In this document: positions 34,922-45,287 of the stretch, in pieces
Layout: each line of letters begins with the position of its first letter
Numbering within the stretch: the stretch's first letter is position 1
Assembly (NCBI GenBank): GCA_016125975.1
Contig: JAEFCZ010000037.1
Location: 1-57,002, forward strand
Direction: 5' to 3'
DNA length: 57,002 bases
Source: Candidatus Nitrosopumilus sp.
GTDB lineage: Archaea > Thermoproteota > Nitrososphaeria > Nitrososphaerales > Nitrosopumilaceae
The notes under the pieces: model-generated
The model's input: only the letters and a program-made list of their open reading frames with translations
Database searches by the model: none
Told to the model about the DNA's origin: nothing
Program-made: the position numbers and the translations under genes

Positions 34922-34970
34922 CTAGTGCTAATTTGGCACTAGTTAAATTAGTTTCCACTAGTTAAATACA
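34922..34970. promoter_or_regulatory. Divergent promoter with three TTASCACTAG motifs
   Basis: CTAGTGCTAA at 34922-34931 (reverse orientation, for the gene at 34866) and two forward copies, TTGGCACTAG at 34933-34942 and TTTCCACTAG at 34952-34961, exactly 19 bp apart. The second forward copy abuts the TATA box TTAAATA (34962-34968), whose centre is 26 nt from the leaderless ATG at 34991. Confidence 0.7.
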
Positions 34971-34990: not shown

Positions 34991-35650
34991 ATGAAAAAAA
35001 GTATTTTTTTTATTTTTCTTTTGATAATTGTTTCAGTAGATTTAGCATTTGGCCACAAATTAATCAGCCATGATGATTCACATAGAGATTTAGAATCAGC
35101 ATTAGAGATACCAGATCATAAAATTTCATGGGCAATTTACGAAAATTTAGGCACAAATGAGGCAAAATTTTACACATTTGAGGCTAAAAAAGGAGATTCA
35201 TTTTATGCAAGCATTGTAATTCCAAAAATTCAAGAATTAGAAAACTATGAACCAACACTTCTACTAGTTGGAGAAAATAATTTCATCATAGAAAAAACAA
35301 TCTATGAAAAGGGATTCCCAGGGAATGAATTCTATGAACCATTTGGTCAGGTCACATATTGGGAACGACAAGAATTGAGAACAGAAATACCTAATGATGG
35401 AATTTATTTCATAGTAGTGATAGATGAAAAAAATCAAAGTGGAAAATACAGTTTAGCAGTTGGAACGATTGAAGATTTTTCTGGAGAAAACATGTTGACG
35501 TTGTTGCCCAAAGCATGGTTTGATACAAAATTATTTGTAAATGATTACATTTCAATAACAATTATTTTTGTAATTCTTATTGCATTGTTTAGTATTCCAG
35601 CATTTGTTATTTTCAAAAAAAGAAATAAAAAATTAAAAAGCTTGAGCTAA
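34991..35650 (+). CDS. Extracytoplasmic protein with a signal peptide and C-terminal membrane helix
   Basis: A 219-residue type I membrane protein. Signal peptide MKKSIFFIFLLIIVSVDLAFG; His/Asp-rich N-terminus (HKLISHDDSHRD); a beta-rich exterior domain (residues about 45-165); C-terminal helix (ISITIIFVILIALFSIPAFV) with a Lys-rich cytoplasmic end. The His cluster could bind metal (inference). Leaderless start, with two TTASCACTAG copies directly upstream of its TATA box. Confidence 0.7.
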   Translation: MKKSIFFIFLLIIVSVDLAFGHKLISHDDSHRDLESALEIPDHKISWAIYENLGTNEAKFYTFEAKKGDSFYASIVIPKIQELENYEPTLLLVGENNFIIEKTIYEKGFPGNEFYEPFGQVTYWERQELRTEIPNDGIYFIVVIDEKNQSGKYSLAVGTIEDFSGENMLTLLPKAWFDTKLFVNDYISITIIFVILIALFSIPAFVIFKKRNKKLKSLS

Positions 35651-37700: not shown

Positions 37701-38600
37701 TTACTCTATGTTTAGAGGAATACTTGCGCTACCAAAGTCTTCACTGATTCTAAAGACATAGTCTTTTGAAGAATCATATTCAAACTCGGTTCCACCATAT
37801 CCAATATTTGGGCCAAAGAGAATGTTGAATTCTCTTGCATCACCTGGATTTAGCACAATTTGTCCACTGGTAAAGTCCATGCCAGAGTACTTGAAGGCCT
37901 TAGAGCCATCCCATACATCATATGCACATATTTGCGGACTAGTACAGTTTAGAGCAACAATTTCAGAACTGGTGTTCTCAGCAAGCATTCTAACAGACAA
38001 TAAAGGTTGTCCAGTAGCAGTAATCTCAAATTCATTTCCTTCAGAACCAACTCCAGTCCAATAATATGTGATTGGACCTAAGTCAAATTTTTGAGCATAT
38101 AATTTGTATTCATGTATTTGGATTGCTTGTTTGAGAGGTTTTTCACAATCAAGTCTTTTGTAGGCTTTGGTGATCTCAGAACATTGTTCTAATTCAGATT
38201 CTAATGCTGCTAATTTTGAATCAGTGTTTTTTGGTTCATCGGACATCATTGGTTGTTCTGAAGGTACAGAAACAGAAAGTAATCCAAATTGAATCAAATG
38301 TTGGATACCGTTAATAAATTCACCATCAGAGATTGTTCCATCTGCCCACCAACCTGCATTGTTCTTAACCCAAGCTGGTACGTTATCGGCAGTTTCAGAG
38401 GATACAGTAGTAGTAGGAACTGTAATAATTCCATCAGAAATTAAAAATGAAATTCCTGCAAGGAATTCAGATTCAGATATGACTCCATCTGCCCACCAAC
38501 CTGCATTGTTCTTAACCCAGCCTGGAACCTCTGCATATGCAGAAGATGCGGTTGTTGCAACCAGTAAAATTGCGGCCATTGCAGTTATTGCGGTTTTCAT
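37701..38600 (-). CDS. Secreted protein with two WVKNNAGWWADG repeats
   Basis: A 299-residue exported protein. The signal peptide ends near AYA-EVPG. Two copies of a repeat of about 35 residues follow (VPGWVKNNAGWWADGVISES and VPAWVKNNAGWWADGTISDG), each ending in a hydrophobic 'FLISDGII'-type helix. A charged linker and a beta-rich domain with several Cys make up the rest. The same repeat occurs in the protease at 49584. The promoter has TTASCACTAG-type motifs abutting its TATA box, which is 26 nt from the leaderless ATG. Confidence 0.75.
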   Translation of the reverse strand: MKTAITAMAAILLVATTASSAYAEVPGWVKNNAGWWADGVISESEFLAGISFLISDGIITVPTTTVSSETADNVPAWVKNNAGWWADGTISDGEFINGIQHLIQFGLLSVSVPSEQPMMSDEPKNTDSKLAALESELEQCSEITKAYKRLDCEKPLKQAIQIHEYKLYAQKFDLGPITYYWTGVGSEGNEFEITATGQPLLSVRMLAENTSSEIVALNCTSPQICAYDVWDGSKAFKYSGMDFTSGQIVLNPGDAREFNILFGPNIGYGGTEFEYDSSKDYVFRISEDFGSASIPLNIE

Positions 38601-38622: not shown

Positions 38623-38694
38623 TATATAAGCCAGTGCTAAAGAATTGTTCTAGTGGTAAATTCTACGACAAATTGGAATAAAATCTAGTGGTAA
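38623..38694. promoter_or_regulatory. Promoter of the 38600 gene with three TTASCACTAG motifs
   Basis: All copies are read here on the plus strand as CCAGTGCTAA (38631-38640), CTAGTGGTAA (38650-38659; 19 bp further) and CTAGTGGTAA (38685-38694). The TATA box TATATA (38623-38628) abuts the first copy and its centre lies 26 nt from the minus-strand ATG at 38600. The plus-strand gene at 38746 has its own TATA (38716-38723) without an adjacent motif. Confidence 0.7.
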
Positions 38695-38745: not shown

Positions 38746-39273
38746 GTGAGTGAAAAACAAAAGATTCTAGACACATCAAGATTATCAGAACAAGATATCA
38801 AAAATTATGTTCTAGAAAGATTTGAAGATGTAAAACAAGGAAAAATAAAAAATCTTGTTTCATTTCAAGCCATGAACAAATACATGATTATGGCACACAA
38901 CCAAGATGAGTTAAAAATTTTAGGAAATATTGTTGCTAGTTACAAAAAAATTTCATTATTAGACATAATGTCGGAATATGAAAAACATCTGAAAATGGCA
39001 TTAGAAAAACCACCTACTATCAAATCACATTCTAACGTAATAATGCATATTTTTGGATATTTTTCAAAAAATTTTAGTCAACTAGAAAAAGAAGAGTTTT
39101 TCAAATTACTAAATGAATTCAAAGAAGAAGAAATAACAATTGGGAAAATTTTGTCTGAGATAAATCCAATCATTTATCGATTCAACAACACATATCTTGC
39201 AAGTCAAACATATTTTCTGTTATATTCAGATCCTCAACCAGGGAATTTGTTTCACACGTTGTCTCAAAAATAA
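38746..39273 (+). CDS. Soluble helical protein of unknown function
   Basis: A 175-residue, charged, alpha-helical protein starting at GTG 38746 (MSEKQKILDTSRLSEQDI). The TATA box TTTATATT at 38716-38723 is centred 26 nt upstream, supporting a leaderless GTG start. Contains repeated amphipathic helices, no Cys or catalytic motif. Convergent with nreA with a 1-nt gap. Not recognised. Confidence 0.65.
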   Translation: MSEKQKILDTSRLSEQDIKNYVLERFEDVKQGKIKNLVSFQAMNKYMIMAHNQDELKILGNIVASYKKISLLDIMSEYEKHLKMALEKPPTIKSHSNVIMHIFGYFSKNFSQLEKEEFFKLLNEFKEEEITIGKILSEINPIIYRFNNTYLASQTYFLLYSDPQPGNLFHTLSQK

Positions 39274-39274
39274 A

Positions 39275-40441
39275 TCAGAAAAAGTCTGACAGAGTTTTTT
39301 GTCGCATTAATTTTGAAATATTTCCATGTGCAAGCCACTCGGATTTACTAATGCTTAGTTTTTCTGATGCCAAATTCAAGGCATGATCAAAATTATTTGC
39401 AATTACTGGTGTTTGTTTCATTGCTTCTCTAATTCCTTCACGGACCTGCCATACTCCTACAGGTATTGCATATTCAGGTCGGATTTCTCTTAAAATTACT
39501 ACTCCAGATTGAATCTTTTTTGCACTGAGATACTCTAACACGCCTAATTTGGCAGCAAAATATGCACCAGCTATGGCAGGAGGATGGTCAATACCCCTGG
39601 CATCCTCAAAATCAGAGCCAAACCCCAGAATGCCATTAGAATACCACGCCTCAACCATTTCGTATATCCATCTATGAGGGAATAAAACCACAGAGAAATG
39701 ATTCCCCAGATGAGAATATGAGAAGACCTTACAGGAGTCTATTAGCCCATAATCTAATACTTCATCAGAAAGAGATTTTGAGATAATGTCATCAGTTGCA
39801 GTTATGCTCCATTTTGTGGGAACAAGTTTTCTTTTTTGTCCAAGCATTCCAATGCTAAAGCATTTTTGAATTTTTGAAACATCAATTCCAGAATTGTATA
39901 AGCTCAGGACGGCATCCTGAGCCTTCAAATCTTTGTCATAGTATGTTTTTTCAATAGAGTTTACAGAAGAGGTTCCGGAGAATTTGGCAGATTTTATTTC
40001 TCCAACAGGGCCAAACGGAGCACTTTCTCCATCAAGGGAAATGTTTGAAGATACAGATTTTTGAAAGATTAAATCAGAATCAGTTGGTTTTGAAGACATT
40101 GTTACTTCTTGGAGATTTTCAATATATCTCCCATCAGTTTTATTGATAGATAGTTTTTGTGTACCACGAACTAAATTCAATCTAAAGTTTACAATTTCTT
40201 CTAACGATTTTCCCTTCCATTTTTCAGGACTGTCAAGTAAACTTGTATCTCCATGAATTGGAGGAACCATGGGACCAACAAAGATCTTAGGATAATTGTA
40301 TGACCCAACAAATACAGATGGAGGACTAGTGCCACTTATTGAATCAGATGAAAACAAATTTCCATATTTTGATAATGTCTCATGCCATTTTGTTAAAATT
40401 GAACGGCGAATATCCTGAGAATCAGAAGACATGAAATTCAT
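39275..40441 (-). CDS. nreA: Nre-family DNA repair protein with C-terminal PIP box
   Basis: About 388 residues. The family core is visible as 'FVGSYNYPKIFVGPM', 'SKPTDSDL', 'APFGPVGEIKSAK', 'LFPHRWIYEMVEAWY' and 'LREIRPEYAIPVGVWQVRE'. The last eight residues, QKTLSDFF, form the PCNA-interacting motif known for archaeal NreA. The N-terminal Cys4 zinc finger of euryarchaeal NreA is not seen here. Starts are ATG 40441 or 40432; the open frame reaches 40510. Probable role: response to DNA damage at the sliding clamp. Confidence 0.85.
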   Translation of the reverse strand: MNFMSSDSQDIRRSILTKWHETLSKYGNLFSSDSISGTSPPSVFVGSYNYPKIFVGPMVPPIHGDTSLLDSPEKWKGKSLEEIVNFRLNLVRGTQKLSINKTDGRYIENLQEVTMSSKPTDSDLIFQKSVSSNISLDGESAPFGPVGEIKSAKFSGTSSVNSIEKTYYDKDLKAQDAVLSLYNSGIDVSKIQKCFSIGMLGQKRKLVPTKWSITATDDIISKSLSDEVLDYGLIDSCKVFSYSHLGNHFSVVLFPHRWIYEMVEAWYSNGILGFGSDFEDARGIDHPPAIAGAYFAAKLGVLEYLSAKKIQSGVVILREIRPEYAIPVGVWQVREGIREAMKQTPVIANNFDHALNLASEKLSISKSEWLAHGNISKLMRQKTLSDFF

Positions 40442-40525
40442 GCTTGATTTGCACCTAATAACTTGACTAATTATTGAAATTGACGGGAGGTAAACACTTG
40501 TTATTACCAAAGATACTGAGTGATC

Positions 40526-41452
40526 ATGGTAGTAAATAGAATAGTCTCATTCTTACCTAGTGCAACAGAATTACTATATGAATTCGGGGTTCAAAACAAG
40601 GTATATGGAGTCACACATGAATGCAAATACCCTAGTGAGGCAATTTCTAAACCACATGTAATTAGTTCAGTAATAGACTCTGAGAAACTATCAAGTAATG
40701 AAATCAACACGCAAACATGTCAACTACTCAATGAAGGTAAAGACATTTTCATTTTAAATGAAAAAAATCTAAAAGATGCCAATCCAGATCTTATAATTTC
40801 TCAAGAAACATGTGAGGTATGTGCGGCATATACTAATCAAGTAAACAAGGCACTCCAGATTCTTGAGAGAAAACCAATAATTCATTCAATGGATCCACAT
40901 AACATATCAGAAATCATAGATTCAGTTATCAAATTAGGAGAAATTTTAGAAGAGGAAAGCAAAGCAAAAGAGATTTCAGATTCATTAGAAAAAAGAATTC
41001 AAAAAATAAAAAACAAAGTTCATGCCAACATACCAAAAATTCTAGCAATTGAATGGATAGAGCCATTTTTTACGGCTGGTCATTGGGTTCCAGAAATGAT
41101 AGAAATTGCAGGAGGGAAAAACACGATAAACAAAACAGGAGAGCATTCAAGACGTATGGGTTTTGAAGAAATATCAAATTCTGATGCAGACATTATAATT
41201 CTCATGCCGTGTGGATTTGACACAAAACGTACAATTTCAGAATACAGGGACATTCTAGAAAGAGATGAGAAGTGGAACAGGCTCAAGGCAATACAAAATC
41301 AAGCTGTTTTTGCAGTGGATGCCAATTCTTTTTTCAGCAAACCCAGCATCAGAGCAGTTGAAGGTATAGAGATACTTGCAAAAATTATTCATCCAGAAGC
41401 ATTTGATGATGTTAATGTTTCAACAAATTCTTTTGCAAAAGTTTACCAATAA
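40526..41452 (+). CDS. BtuF-like cobalamin/metal-chelate binding domain protein, without signal peptide
   Basis: About 308 residues of the class III solute-binding fold (RIVSFLPSATELLYEFG...VYGVTHECKYP, 'PDLIISQETCEVC', 'WIEPFFTAGHWVPEMIEIAGG'). The family binds cobalamin or iron chelates for ABC import. There is no signal peptide or lipobox, so this member looks cytoplasmic, which is common for the archaeal/cyanobacterial subgroup. ATG 40526 is chosen; GTG 40520 is also possible. Divergent from nreA. Confidence 0.8.
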   Translation: MVVNRIVSFLPSATELLYEFGVQNKVYGVTHECKYPSEAISKPHVISSVIDSEKLSSNEINTQTCQLLNEGKDIFILNEKNLKDANPDLIISQETCEVCAAYTNQVNKALQILERKPIIHSMDPHNISEIIDSVIKLGEILEEESKAKEISDSLEKRIQKIKNKVHANIPKILAIEWIEPFFTAGHWVPEMIEIAGGKNTINKTGEHSRRMGFEEISNSDADIIILMPCGFDTKRTISEYRDILERDEKWNRLKAIQNQAVFAVDANSFFSKPSIRAVEGIEILAKIIHPEAFDDVNVSTNSFAKVYQ

Positions 41453-41458
41453 ATTTCA

Positions 41459-41777
41459 TCATATGGGTTTACCTTTGTACTGATAATCAATTACTTTGTG
41501 GAACAAGTTGTGAGATGCAATAACGGTTAATGCAACTATGAAGATTCCAACAAAATTCCTTATTGTCATCAATTCATTTGGAATAGTTGCTATGAATGAA
41601 CTTTCAAAGATGACATAGTAGTTATCAAACAACCAAAATGCCAAAGTAATCCAGGACAATACACCGGCTATCAAATAACCTAAACGCGTTTTGTTGTGAA
41701 TTAGTATTATTGCAAATCCAATAGCAACATACCAAAAGGCAGAACCAATTAACCATAAAGGCTCATAGACATCAGTT
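41459..41777 (-). pseudogene. C-terminal membrane domain split from the SDR gene by a frameshift
   Basis: An open frame from 41776 downward encodes three membrane helices (LWLIGSAFWYVAIGFAIILI, YLIAGVLSWITLAFWLF, VGIFIVALTVIAS) and ends 'DYQYKGKPI'. The first helix lies before any ATG, GTG or TTG: only TTG 41674 exists and it would cut the domain. Adding one G after the last ATG of the upstream gene (41763-41765) fuses 'DDELMSM' to 'EPLWLIGSAFW' in frame. I therefore read it as the displaced C-terminus of the 41749-42837 gene. Confidence 0.6.
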
Positions 41778-42837
41778 CATCATCTAACCAATAGTAACTT
41801 GAACCAATAACAGCTAATGCAAATAGAGAAACCTGAATTAATTTTTGATTAATTTTGAACCCTGTTTTTTCCTCTCTTTGTTCCATTTGAGGCGGATTGG
41901 ATTTCATTTCTTTTGTTGCAATATCAATTGCATCACGAACGGATTTTAGATGCATGGGAATGATTTTTGTTATAGAATCATCGGTCACAACAGTGTCATG
42001 AACCAAGCTACCAATCAAAGGTCTTGCAAGAGATGCCTTTACAGGAGTAATAAGATCAACCCAATACGAAGATATTCTAGTAGTTAGAAATGGGATTTGA
42101 ATGACAAACAGATTTTTGTTAAGATATGCAGAATATACACGCATTAATTCTTCATAAGTCATTTTATCAGGACCTCCAATCTCAAATATCTTACCCATGG
42201 TTTCAGGTTTCGATAGAGATTCAACAAGATAACTAACCACATCATCTACTGCAATTGGTTGAGCCAATGACTTTACCCATGAAGGACAGACCATGACACT
42301 CAATCTTTCAACAAGATAACGAAGCATAGCATAAGAACCACCTTTTGCACCAATAATTATAGAAGTTCTAAATTCAGTTACAGGAATATTTCCAGATGCA
42401 AGAATTTCTCCCACTTCTTTTCTACTACGCATATGAGGTGAAAGACCAAGACGATCATTAACTAAACCACCAAGATAGATAATTCGTTTTACACCAGACT
42501 CTGTTGCAGCTTTGAGAAAATTTTGAGCTTGAATTTTTTCTCTTGCGGCAAATTCTTGCCAATCTCCTTTGTCACCTTCCATAGAGTGGAGTAAATAAAA
42601 TGCAGTGTCAATACCAGACATTGCATTTTTTAATTCATCAAAGTTGAAAACATCTGCTTTAACATATTTTACTTTGTCATTATCAGGGAATTGTTTTCTA
42701 CTTAGACCTTTTACAGTATAACCCGAAGAAACAAGAGATAAAATTAATCTTGAACCAATAAACCCAGTTGCACCAGTAACCAAAATTGAAAATGGTTTAT
42801 AATCAGAAATATTAGATGAGGAAATTATTTGCTTCAT
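41749..42837 (-). CDS. NAD(P)-binding SDR/NmrA-like epimerase, probably frameshifted at the C-terminus
   Basis: A 362-residue Rossmann protein. 'VTGATGFIGSRLILSLVSSGY' is the dinucleotide loop, followed by 'VKGLSRKQF', 'FYLLHSMEG' and 'IYLGGLV'. It is an atypical (extended/NmrA-like) SDR related to DUF2867-type proteins that often carry a C-terminal membrane domain. A single membrane helix (LIQVSLFALAVIGSSYYWL) precedes the stop, and the remaining helices lie out of frame downstream. The promoter has a paired TTASCACTAG motif at its TATA box and a GGAG ribosome site (42847-42850). Divergent from the CarH-like gene. Confidence 0.75.
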   Translation of the reverse strand: MKQIISSSNISDYKPFSILVTGATGFIGSRLILSLVSSGYTVKGLSRKQFPDNDKVKYVKADVFNFDELKNAMSGIDTAFYLLHSMEGDKGDWQEFAAREKIQAQNFLKAATESGVKRIIYLGGLVNDRLGLSPHMRSRKEVGEILASGNIPVTEFRTSIIIGAKGGSYAMLRYLVERLSVMVCPSWVKSLAQPIAVDDVVSYLVESLSKPETMGKIFEIGGPDKMTYEELMRVYSAYLNKNLFVIQIPFLTTRISSYWVDLITPVKASLARPLIGSLVHDTVVTDDSITKIIPMHLKSVRDAIDIATKEMKSNPPQMEQREEKTGFKINQKLIQVSLFALAVIGSSYYWLDDELMSMSLYG

Positions 42838-42892: not shown

Positions 42893-43031
42893 TTATATAA
42901 ACTAGTGATAATTAATTTTACTAGTGGAAAAATAGTAATTTTTGGGAGTGATTTAGGAATAAATATTTGTAAAATGGATAATAAAACTGAAATTTAGCAC
43001 TAGAAAAATGAATTAGCATTAGTTATATAAT
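42893..43031. promoter_or_regulatory. Divergent promoter with two 19-bp-spaced motif pairs
   Basis: Towards the SDR gene: CTAGTGATAA (42902-42911) and CTAGTGGAAA (42921-42930), 19 bp apart, beside the TATA TTATATAA (42893-42900). Towards the CarH-like gene: TTAGCACTAG (42994-43003) and TTAGCATTAG (43013-43022), again 19 bp apart, abutting TTATATAAT (43023-43031). The second TATA centre is about 25 nt before ATG 43050, which identifies that ATG as the start. Confidence 0.75.
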
Positions 43032-43049
43032 ATGCCACTAAACAAAATC

Positions 43050-43892
43050 ATGGTCTACATACGAGCAAAGAAGGTAAAATCAGATCAATATCTATACCTA
43101 GTCAAAAGTGTATGGGACTCAAAAAAGAGTACATCAAAACAAGAGATTGTCAAATATCTAGGAAAAGCATCTGAAGTAGTCAAAGATGATATTCCAATTG
43201 ACTATAGAAATGACCACAAGATATTATCAGTTTTAGCATCTTACAATCCAAAAGATATCAAGAAAAGAGAAGATGCAACAAAAAAATCAAAACAGCAATT
43301 GTACAAGAAACTAACTGAGGGAAGTATTCAAGATTGTGTAAAAATTTATGAAGAATATATCAAAATTTTTAATGCCTCTGATTTCTTTGATAAAATTCTA
43401 AAACCAACAATGTATAGAATTGGAGATGAGTGGGCCACAGGTAAAATCAGTATAGCCACAGAACATGTTGCAAGCAATGTTGCTCAAACACTTGTAAAAA
43501 TAATAATGGACCAAGTATCAGCAGGAGGAAATAAAAAGAAAATTCTCATATGTGTTCCATTAGGAGAAGAACATCATTTGGGATGCGACGTATTAGAGAC
43601 ATATCTATCAATCAAAGGATTCAAAATTTTCAATATGGGGACATCAATACCAACAGAATCAATTCTAAGTTTCATTGACAACAATAGACCAGATGTAGTA
43701 CTGGTGTCAATTACATTAGAAGATAACCTAGCAGCAGGACAAAGATTGGTTAAAAAAATAAGTGATCATGTAAACATTCCTGTACTAGTTGGAGGATATG
43801 CACTTCAAGCAAAGAAAATCCCCAAATTTGCAGGTCAGATAATTTCAGATTGTGGTCTTGAAGAAGTTCCTAAAATTTTAAGAAAGATTTGA
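43050..43892 (+). CDS. CarH-like cobalamin-sensing regulator with a transposase-like N-terminal domain
   Basis: About 280 residues. The N-terminal 45 residues (VYIRAKKVKSDQYLYLVKSV, then QEIVKYLG) resemble the small first domain of IS1634-type transposases, not a MerR helix-turn-helix. A linker leads to a four-helix cobalamin-capping domain ('DEWATGKISIATEHVAS', residues about 128-145) and a B12 Rossmann domain with 'LGEEHHLGCDVLE' (the ExHxxG-type His motif), 'KIFNMGTSIP' and 'VGGYAL'. Cap and fold match CarH/LitR and MtaC-type B12 proteins. It is probably a sensor of adenosylcobalamin or light; DNA binding by the N-terminus is inferred. ATG 43050 is preferred over 43032, which overlaps the TATA-box position. 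Confidence 0.75.
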   Translation: MVYIRAKKVKSDQYLYLVKSVWDSKKSTSKQEIVKYLGKASEVVKDDIPIDYRNDHKILSVLASYNPKDIKKREDATKKSKQQLYKKLTEGSIQDCVKIYEEYIKIFNASDFFDKILKPTMYRIGDEWATGKISIATEHVASNVAQTLVKIIMDQVSAGGNKKKILICVPLGEEHHLGCDVLETYLSIKGFKIFNMGTSIPTESILSFIDNNRPDVVLVSITLEDNLAAGQRLVKKISDHVNIPVLVGGYALQAKKIPKFAGQIISDCGLEEVPKILRKI

Positions 43893-43910
43893 TTTTATTT
43901 TAAAACCCCA

Positions 43911-43963
43911 TAGTGGTAAATTAAATAAATTCTTATAAAAATTAGTTATGAATTAGCACTAGA
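43911..43963. promoter_or_regulatory. Two further TTASCACTAG-type motifs
   Basis: ATAGTGGTAA (43911-43920, reverse) and TTAGCACTAG (43954-43963, forward) lie between the CarH-like gene and the small genes. They are not as tightly placed against a TATA box as the others; an AT-rich TATA candidate for ATG 44010 lies at about 43978-43990. Confidence 0.5.
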
Positions 43964-44009
43964 ATTCAATTTTTTTGTTATTAAAATAAAACAAAAACAA
44001 TAGAAAAGC

Positions 44010-44120
44010 ATGGAATATGAAGTAGAATTAACATATGCAGTAATTGTAGACACAAAAAAAGAATTGCTAAAAATGATATCTAAAAAAATGAATTCGAACA
44101 AACGTTTGCTCAAATTGTAA
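44010..44120 (+). CDS. 36-residue microprotein
   Basis: A short frame starting MEYEVELTYAVIVDTKKE and ending 'NSNKRLLKL', with an acidic beta-like N-terminus and a basic C-terminus. It lies behind a TTAGCACTAG motif and a TATA-like stretch. No homologue recognised; coding status is uncertain. Confidence 0.35.
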   Translation: MEYEVELTYAVIVDTKKELLKMISKKMNSNKRLLKL

Positions 44121-44155
44121 CAACTTCATAAAATTATTGTGATAAAATAAAAAAA

Positions 44156-44165
44156 TTGGCACTAG
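44156..44165 (+). promoter_or_regulatory. TTASCACTAG motif upstream of the zinc-ribbon/TFB unit
   Basis: TTGGCACTAG at 44156-44165. A TATA-like CTTAAATAA (44184-44192) lies about 25 nt before ATG 44213. The motif is about 20 bp upstream of this TATA, unlike the abutting copies elsewhere, so it may be a distal site. Confidence 0.5.
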
Positions 44166-44212
44166 AAAAAATATTTTCTTTCTCTTAAATAATTTCAAAG
44201 CAAAATTAATTT

Positions 44213-44365
44213 ATGAAACAAGAATTAATTAAAATAAATGTAAATGAATTAAAAATCAAAAATAAAGACGTAAAAATTTGTATTAACTGCGGAAATTCAA
44301 AAGTTGATTCACATGAGTATGGCATTTCATGTGAGGATTGCGGTATTCTTTTGTGGAGAGAATAA
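44213..44365 (+). CDS. 50-residue zinc-ribbon protein directly upstream of TFB
   Basis: A small protein with 'CINCGNSKVDSHEYGISCEDCG', written here in two parts: first knuckle CINCG and second knuckle CEDCG, 13 residues apart. This is a TFIIB/TFIIS-like ribbon spacing. It ends at TAA 44363-44365, 1 nt before the TFB ATG (44367), so the two are surely one transcript. Because the following TFB has an imperfect ribbon, a supporting role in transcription is a tempting inference. Confidence 0.65.
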   Translation: MKQELIKINVNELKIKNKDVKICINCGNSKVDSHEYGISCEDCGILLWRE

Positions 44366-44366
44366 A

Positions 44367-45287
44367 ATGATTACAGAACTTGTCCATCAAAAGAGTTGTA
44401 AAAAAAATAAGATTGTAACTGATCTCAATACAGGGGAAATTGCATGCAGAAATTGTGGCGCAGTGTTATCTGAAAGAGTAGTAGATAATGTTCCTGAAAG
44501 TCTAGGAATGTCAGGAGAAGAATACCAGGCCAACAGCAGAGTTGGAAGAAAGATTTCATTAAAAATGATAGATATGGGATTATCAACCATTATCGAGTCT
44601 AAGGACAAGGATGCAACTGGAAAGTGGCTATCCAATGAGAATAAGAGAATGTTTTATCGCCTCAGAATGTGGGATAGAAATAGTCGTTCTGCAAACACTG
44701 TCAAATCATTTCAAAAGGCATTCACTATGCTTGATGGAATCAGTGCAAAACTTGGGCTTCCAGAACCAGTTATAGAGCAAACAGCATATCTATTTCGAAA
44801 AATTGTTGCAAAAAAGATTCTCACAGGCAGATCAACTGCAGGAATTCTTTGTGCTGCAATTTACATCACATGTAGAATGACAAACACACCTAGAACCCTA
44901 CAAGATGTAGCAAAAGCAGGAAATGTAAACAAGAAAAATATTCAACGAACATACAGATTTCTTGCAAGAGAATTAGACATTACGCCAGAAATTTATCATC
45001 CCACAGAATTTGTGACACGAATTGCAAAGGCAGTAGAGATTTCTGAGAAAACAGAAAGACTGGCATTTAGAATTTTAGATCTTTCTGCAAGAAACAGGGT
45101 ATTAGAAAGTAAAAATCCAATGGCAATGGCAGCTGCTGCAACATATCTTGCATCAGTAAAAAATGACGAAAAGATTTCTCAGTTAAAAATCTCCAGAGTG
45201 TCTGACATTAGTGCTGTCACAATCAGAGATAGAACAAAGGAAATGTTGAAAAATATAGGAGGTGAAATTGATGGGAAGAACGTGTAG
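44367..45287 (+). CDS. tfb: Divergent transcription factor B (TFB)
   Basis: About 306 residues with two cyclin-like repeats ('TAGILCAAIYITCRMTNTPRTL' and 'NPMAMAAAATYLASV', each written from the start of the repeat helix) that bind TBP and BRE DNA. The N-terminal ribbon is odd: where standard TFB has CxxC it has HQKSC, then CRNCG. The B-reader 'EWRSF' of the other TFB (51083) is replaced by 'ESLGM'. It may therefore be a specialised TFB. ATG 44367 is chosen because the 21 upstream residues overlap the zinc-ribbon gene. The Cys-rich gene begins inside its 3' end. Confidence 0.85.
   Translation: MITELVHQKSCKKNKIVTDLNTGEIACRNCGAVLSERVVDNVPESLGMSGEEYQANSRVGRKISLKMIDMGLSTIIESKDKDATGKWLSNENKRMFYRLRMWDRNSRSANTVKSFQKAFTMLDGISAKLGLPEPVIEQTAYLFRKIVAKKILTGRSTAGILCAAIYITCRMTNTPRTLQDVAKAGNVNKKNIQRTYRFLARELDITPEIYHPTEFVTRIAKAVEISEKTERLAFRILDLSARNRVLESKNPMAMAAAATYLASVKNDEKISQLKISRVSDISAVTIRDRTKEMLKNIGGEIDGKNV
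45258..45265 (+). promoter_or_regulatory. Strong Shine-Dalgarno site inside the tfb 3' end
   Basis: GGAGGTGA lies 5 nt before ATG 45271. It fixes the start of the Cys-rich protein and shows coupled, leadered translation in a genome where many genes look leaderless. Confidence 0.7.

Follow-up and report, generated by a model that had tools for sequence, protein, structure and literature searches.

Does an ammonia-oxidising archaeon possess a cobalamin-based light sensor that controls a set of promoters of its own, and which DNA element would such a protein read? This question is raised by a gene on contig JAEFCZ010000037.1 of Candidatus Nitrosopumilus sp., of which we analysed positions 1 to 57,002 (the whole 57,002-nucleotide stretch is called the window below). 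Archaea dominate ocean ammonia oxidation, and light inhibition is a classic, mechanistically open trait of the ammonia oxidisers among them. A first-pass annotation, made from the letters of the window without database searches, had proposed a CarH-like B12 sensor in which a transposase-like N-terminus replaces the MerR domain. This claim held on profile, motif, and structure evidence.

The Regulator Contains a CarH-Type Cobalamin Domain

The open reading frame of the CarH-like regulator was confirmed on the + strand, with possible starts at 43032 and 43050 and its end at 43892. Two observations favour ATG 43050: the TATA box TTATATAA at 43023-43030, and the alignment of orthologues, which begins at this methionine. 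The gene and its domains are as follows:

43050..43892, + strand: CarH-like regulator gene, 280 aa, leaderless, ATG 43050
43050..43223, + strand: N-terminal domain, residues 1-58, a predicted three-stranded beta sheet; homologue of the IS1634 transposase N-terminus and putative DNA-binding domain
43293..43505, + strand: four-helix cobalamin cap, residues 82-152 (Pfam B12-binding_2), with G125-xx-W128-x9-E138-H139; signature from PMC11796333
43542..43802, + strand: Rossmann B12-binding domain, residues 165-251 (Pfam B12-binding), with E173-x-H175-xx-G178, S220-x-T222, and GG248-249

Residues 82-280 form a CarH-type cobalamin domain with every published light-response element (GxxW, Wx9EH, GxxH, and GxxxP). 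Pfam matches were obtained for B12-binding_2 (residues 82-152, E 5e-12) and B12-binding (residues 165-251, E 2e-11). The motif test for myxobacterial CarH asks for Wx9EH together with D/ExHx2G-x41-SxT/V-x22-27-GG (PMC9304148). The cap motif is intact in the regulator (W128-x9-E138-H139) and in 67 of 81 family proteins, and the B12 motif has exact spacing (E173-x-H175-xx-G178, x41, S220-x-T222, x25, GG248-249). Furthermore, the light signature GxxW, EH, GxxH, and GxxxP, which was validated spectroscopically on other proteins (PMC11796333), is complete (G125/W128, E138-H139, G172/H175, and G197/P201). Domain make-up and light signature are shown by these results; the light response itself is inferred.

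The top NCBIfam model for the regulator was CarH with 62.6 bits, and the equivalog cut-off of 400 bits was not reached. An AlphaFold2 model calculated with 29 relatives (pLDDT 86.5, pTM 0.47) leaves the relative placement of the domains uncertain; by fold, its closest counterparts in the PDB were a photocobilin and structures of TtCarH. The reading as a plain corrinoid methyltransferase protein was rejected on the motifs and on the profile scores, as models of the MtaC/MtbC/MetH type reached at most 44 bits vs. 62.6 bits for CarH. No methyltransferase gene was found among the recurrent neighbours of regulator loci. The first-pass annotation had named two outcomes that would refute it, a profile search pointing to a plain methyltransferase corrinoid protein and the absence of the His ligand in orthologues. 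The former was excluded, and the axial His is present in 81 of 81 family proteins.

One residue of TtCarH is missing. In TtCarH, His132 follows the cap Trp and belongs to a bis-His light state; this position varies within the CarH/LitR family. Its equivalent is Ala in the window protein and in 44 of 67 relatives, and His in none of the 67. The light state must therefore differ from that of TtCarH and, if there is any, resemble that of CtMerR and the photocobilins. In TtCarH, most of the H132A protein is still tetrameric in the light (PMC10442372), and CtMerR (Arg), SasPcob (Gln), and AbDPcob (Tyr) are light-responsive with other residues at this position (PMC11796333). It remains possible that light-driven disassembly proceeds differently than in TtCarH, or fails, given the missing His132 equivalent.

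The N-Terminal Domain Is Related to IS1634 Transposases

Residues 1-80 had no Pfam match and residues 1-55 no NCBIfam match. A MerR winged-helix domain is absent, since neither database matched the N-terminus and AlphaFold2 gives three beta strands; for residues 1-58, these are predicted to be antiparallel with a pLDDT of 91.8. An HMM built from the N-termini of 12 independently annotated IS1634 transposases gave each of the 81 family proteins a better score than any decoy (best E-value 5e-11; 0.056 for the top decoy) or shuffle. Profile–profile comparison of the regulator and IS1634 N-termini gave a probability of 95.3 (E 2e-8). The first-pass annotation had proposed the IS1634 likeness without any search and had suggested an HMM search and a structure prediction as checks. 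The proposal held on the HMM ranking and the profile–profile comparison: the domain belongs to no Pfam or NCBIfam family, but is homologous to IS1634 N-termini. The structure prediction gave a three-stranded beta N-terminus and whole-protein matches to TtCarH and a photocobilin.

The domain comprises the best-conserved part of the family, with 14 of 58 columns invariant across families. A DDE transposase catalytic domain is absent from the 280-aa protein, in which residues 82-251 are occupied by the cobalamin domains. Across 300 genomes of the phylum, the N-terminal domain was found almost only in open reading frames of the regulator's length; the exception is a set of short fragments in one genome of genus g74, a genus with IS1634-type elements. 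A plasmid search with the domain gave no match. As a fold search of the PDB with residues 1-58 returned no significant match, the idea of an arm-type or AP2-like three-stranded beta DNA-binding domain is unsupported. DNA binding by this domain is thus putative, resting on homology alone without a solved fold relative.

Paired CACTAG Boxes Form a Promoter Element

The motif TTASCACTAG occurs 20 times in the window at no more than one mismatch (4.2 expected), and four direct-repeat pairs were found where 0.1 were expected. A random motif cluster was rejected on these single-box and pair counts, which lie far above expectation. The boxes form a promoter element, TTAGCACTAG-N8/9-TTANCAYYAG, in which box 2 touches the TATA box and a leaderless ATG follows about 30 nt downstream. 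The pairs of the window are:

42994..43022, + strand: box pair TTAGCACTAG-N9-TTAGCATTAG of the regulator's own promoter, kept in 59 of 67 orthologue promoters
43023..43030, + strand: TATA box TTATATAA touching box 2, 20 nt before ATG 43050
42902..42930, - strand: box pair TTTCCACTAG-N9-TTATCACTAG and then TTTATATAA, in the promoter of the divergent SDR gene
38631..38659, - strand: box pair TTACCACTAG-N9-TTAGCACTGG and TATA box, 5' of a secreted-protein gene
34933..34961, + strand: box pair TTGGCACTAG-N9-TTTCCACTAG and TATA box

It had been claimed that two motif pairs lie upstream of the gene, which held: both pairs (42902-42930, - strand; 42994-43022, + strand) are intergenic. The claim that the gene sits at the centre of the TTASCACTAG cluster held only in part, as the gene lies inside the cluster and not at its strict centre.

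The place of the element within promoters is fixed. A box pair precedes 59 of 67 regulator orthologues at no more than one mismatch and 64 of 67 at no more than two. In the loci retrieved, an ATG lies 24-33 nt after box 2 in 174 of 195 distinct pairs (20% by chance), and the distance from box 1 to the TATA box is constant though the gap shifts between 18 and 19. Recurrent targets of box pairs are the regulator itself, secreted WVKNNAGWW proteins, the SDR, a CrtI-like FAD oxidoreductase, the HKLISHDD protein, a 61-aa and a 183-aa protein, and small zinc-ribbon proteins.

The source genome (108 contigs, 99.9% complete) carries a second copy of the regulator with 66% identity on contig C48 (L036, 961-1924). 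It is divergent from another secreted WVKNNAGWW-type gene, and a box pair lies in between. A second cluster on contig C7 (L035, 4304-9561) has three strong box pairs before unknown proteins; its proteins comprise 185 aa (MSQQYSSFIQEIW), 61 aa (MAEEQEWANLL), and a 58-aa zinc ribbon. Near it on the same contig is a TFB paralogue with 55% identity to the TFB of the window.

Box Pairs Co-Occur with the Regulator Gene

Using the strict pair definition on genomes of the same genus, we detected pairs in 20 of 26 genomes with the regulator gene vs. 0 of 11 without it; a pair more than 1 kb away from the regulator was present in 14 of the 26 and, again, in none of the 11. With a relaxed pattern, matches were found in 62 of 74 complete genomes with the gene vs. 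13 of 60 without it, among 250 genomes of the family (Fisher p 3e-13). Mean matches were 2.05 with and 0.30 without the gene, and the reversed-pattern control gave about 0.1 in both. Co-occurrence of boxes and gene is shown, with the reservation that the p-values treat related genomes as independent and are overstated, and that the regulator's own promoter supplies part of the signal. Some genomes are exceptions (G359 and G385) and carry good pairs with no regulator gene detected. In G359, one contig (C89; L186) has an SDR, a TFB, and good box pairs; the assembly might lack the regulator, or some second protein might read the boxes.

The Neighbourhood Resembles Light-Inducible Gene Clusters

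In genomes representing GTDB species, the locus order that recurs in dozens of species is secreted protein, DUF1722, (Nre, BtuF-like), SDR, regulator, FAD oxidoreductase, and TFB. Counted among regulator loci, the most frequent neighbours are SDR (48), DUF1722 (46), TFB (42), and FAD oxidoreductase (40). The neighbouring and putative target genes in the window are as follows:

34991..35650, + strand: secreted/membrane protein of the GHKLISHDD family, putative target, with box pair and TATA box upstream
37701..38600, - strand: secreted protein with two PxWVKNNAGWWADGxISxxEF repeats; a box pair precedes 50 family members in related loci
38746..39273, + strand: DUF1722 protein, conserved neighbour; a single box lies on the opposite strand at 38685-38694, and direct control is not shown
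41459..41674, - strand: membrane part from the C-terminus of the SDR protein, encoded in a frame of its own; the gene is split in the window genome
41749..42837, - strand: SDR/NmrA-like NAD(P)-binding protein; related genomes lose it together with the regulator
44367..45287, + strand: conserved neighbouring TFB (TFIIB-like) paralogue, ruled out as the obligatory box reader

The SDR gene, split here (41459-42837), encodes a single protein of 450-480 aa in relatives, and a close SDR is kept in just 2 of 22 genomes without the regulator. About 40 related loci have a CrtI-like FAD oxidoreductase between regulator and TFB; the window lacks it (43892-44367). An NreA-type DNA repair gene and a BtuF-like gene are located between DUF1722 and SDR (39275-41452), an arrangement conserved in about 14 loci. 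We found no photolyase (PF00875) in the source genome and no plasmid relatives of the FAD protein; none of the inspected plasmid relatives of the SDR adjoined LitR, and one lay in a carotenoid cluster. As DUF1722, SDR, and FAD oxidoreductase are the neighbour classes of light-inducible LitR clusters, light as the signal is supported, at the level of protein classes only.

The Architecture Is Widespread and Has a Cap-Less Sister Clade

Of the 250 genomes of the family that were searched, about 120 carry the regulator gene. Its domain arrangement is constant throughout Nitrosopumilaceae and extends to two other families of the order, and is therefore no one-off fusion; relatives in the second family (G332) and the third family (G053, L033) keep the whole cap motif. 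In G053, a NADH-dehydrogenase-like gene follows the regulator, with a box pair before each (L061, 4826-5790).

Some marine lineages (L031, L055-L060, and L167-L178) encode a paralogue clade of 14 proteins with 35-39% identity, which kept the beta domain and the B12 motif and lost the cap Trp, Glu, and His altogether. Box pairs were absent upstream of all 12 cap-less paralogues checked. Their promoters share another element, about TACTCAtCaAGGTGCGTAATcGGATTAAATAC. Three points go beyond the first-pass annotation: the boxes make up a promoter element that goes with the gene from genome to genome, the whole family shares the architecture, and a sister paralogue has lost the light-sensing cap.

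Proposed Mechanism and Alternative Explanations

The best reading, which we consider likely in the absence of binding or light data, is a one-component regulator that depends on AdoCbl, responds to light, controls a regulon of its own, and most likely represses it in the dark. The N-terminal ~55 residues, an IS1634-type beta-sheet domain in place of MerR, would read the direct repeat TTAGCACTAG-N8/9-TTANCAYYAG. In the dark, the AdoCbl-bound protein would form an oligomer occupying both boxes, which touch the TATA box and are predicted to overlie the BRE/TFB-binding position. In the light, the Co-C bond would break and the oligomer would fall apart. The regulon (the regulator's own gene, the SDR, the CrtI-like FAD oxidoreductase if present, and the secreted and small proteins) would then change expression, most likely upward. 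The parts of this reading differ in strength. While the architecture is established, it is inferred from sequence alone that the protein responds to light, binds DNA, and regulates in the proposed direction. That the protein binds the boxes is probable, and light as the signal somewhat less so; repression in the dark is only modestly favoured over activation.

The alternative that survives best is an activator, which would recruit TBP/TFB from its place next to the TATA box, with light switching the regulon off or on via a change in oligomer. Box 2 touches the TATA box in nearly all promoters and the distance from box 1 is constant, which suits contact with the basal machinery. However, known CarH/LitR regulators are mostly dark repressors, and an operator over the BRE would also block TFB. 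Sequence cannot decide between the two: CarH precedent and BRE coverage favour the dark repressor, strict TATA spacing suits the activator, and we regard the activator as the weaker option.

Secondly, the protein could sense the AdoCbl level, i.e., vitamin B12 status, and not light, so that AdoCbl binding alone sets DNA binding. This possibility is less likely but cannot be excluded. The missing His132 equivalent, the lack of a photolyase in the genome, and the BtuF-like neighbour gene of some species speak for it. The complete light signature, the DUF1722/SDR/FAD neighbours typical of light clusters, and the photolysis of bound AdoCbl expected from cofactor chemistry speak against it.

Thirdly, the reader of the boxes could be a different factor, such as an unknown regulator or the TFB paralogue next to the gene, which would make the CarH-like gene merely one of the targets. 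This is supported by the location of box 2 at the BRE position, by a specific TFB orthologue that is often in the locus, and by the boxes of the CarH-like gene itself. We nevertheless consider it unlikely, as the boxes become scarce in genomes without the CarH-like gene. TFB is not known to recognise two 10-bp boxes 18-19 bp apart. The neighbouring TFB was rejected as obligatory reader, since G036 and G213 have gene and boxes with a closest TFB of only 42-43% identity. Finally, the N-terminal domain could be left over from a transposon fusion and have no role in DNA binding, with the protein acting via protein contacts; the lack of a fold match of residues 1-58 to a known DNA-binding domain would fit, but this is very improbable for the best-conserved part of the protein, as a remnant would decay.

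The light-responsive regulator of its own regulon hence remains our preferred reading. A bolder version, which may or may not prove right, is a green-light photoreceptor-regulator made of a CarH-type B12 sensor and a DNA-binding domain domesticated from a transposase, with a dedicated promoter code (CACTAG pairs beside the TATA box), its own regulon, and a B12-blind sister in some lineages, so that the CarH/CarA pair would have been re-invented.

Significance

With a candidate sensor, a DNA code, and a target list, light control of nitrifiers becomes directly testable. If the reading is true, the B12 light-sensing module works with a non-MerR DNA-binding domain and an archaeal TBP/TFB promoter, which would be useful for optogenetics. 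The first-pass annotation had spoken of a new architecture for cobalamin- or light-dependent control in an ammonia oxidiser; the architecture is supported, and the control itself is inferred. The literature searched, which did not include subscription papers and the SignatureFinder supplement, contains no description of a B12 photoreceptor in ammonia-oxidising archaea; an earlier unannotated listing is possible. It also yielded nothing usable on Nitrosopumilus light transcriptomes.

Comparison with Known Systems

The neighbourhood is reminiscent of the light-inducible cluster of Pseudomonas class II LitR, in which the regulator likewise lies beside DUF1722/RudS, SDR, and FAD-dependent oxidoreductase genes. 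The Pseudomonas cluster also has a photolyase, and one-to-one orthology of its SDR and FAD genes with the archaeal ones is not shown. With IS1634-family transposases (NF033559), the regulator shares the N-terminal ~55 residues (xxYLYLVES...KxxKQxxxxxLG), but carries a cobalamin sensor where the DDE catalytic domain would be. Photocobilins and CtMerR (SignatureFinder set, PMC11796333) have GxxW, EH, GxxH, and GxxxP in common with it and are light-active without a TtCarH-like His132. Their outputs are HTH, DGC, BBD, and others, and the main text of that study names no IS1634-type beta domain.

The 14-member clade recalls CarA of Myxococcus, the B12-independent paralogue of CarH (PMC9304148), in having lost Wx9EH and kept the B12-binding motif. 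However, the losses differ: in myxococcal CarA, Trp and residues flanking it are gone and EH is retained, whereas the archaeal clade lost W, E, and H. The closest likeness in the sensor is to CarH/class I LitR proteins, e.g., Thermus thermophilus CarH, which have the same four-helix cap and Rossmann B12 domain with Wx9EH and ExHxxG-x41-SxT-x25-GG. CarH operators are direct repeats overlapping promoter elements (PMC9304148), and so are the boxes of the archaeal regulator, with the difference that two boxes 18-19 bp apart stand beside the TATA box instead of three to four tandem direct repeats. Unlike CarH/class I LitR, the regulator has no MerR winged helix and no His after the cap Trp, and is archaeal. 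By its DNA-binding domain, it stands outside the MerR-type CarH/LitR family; by the published signature, it is a CarH-type cobalamin photosensor.
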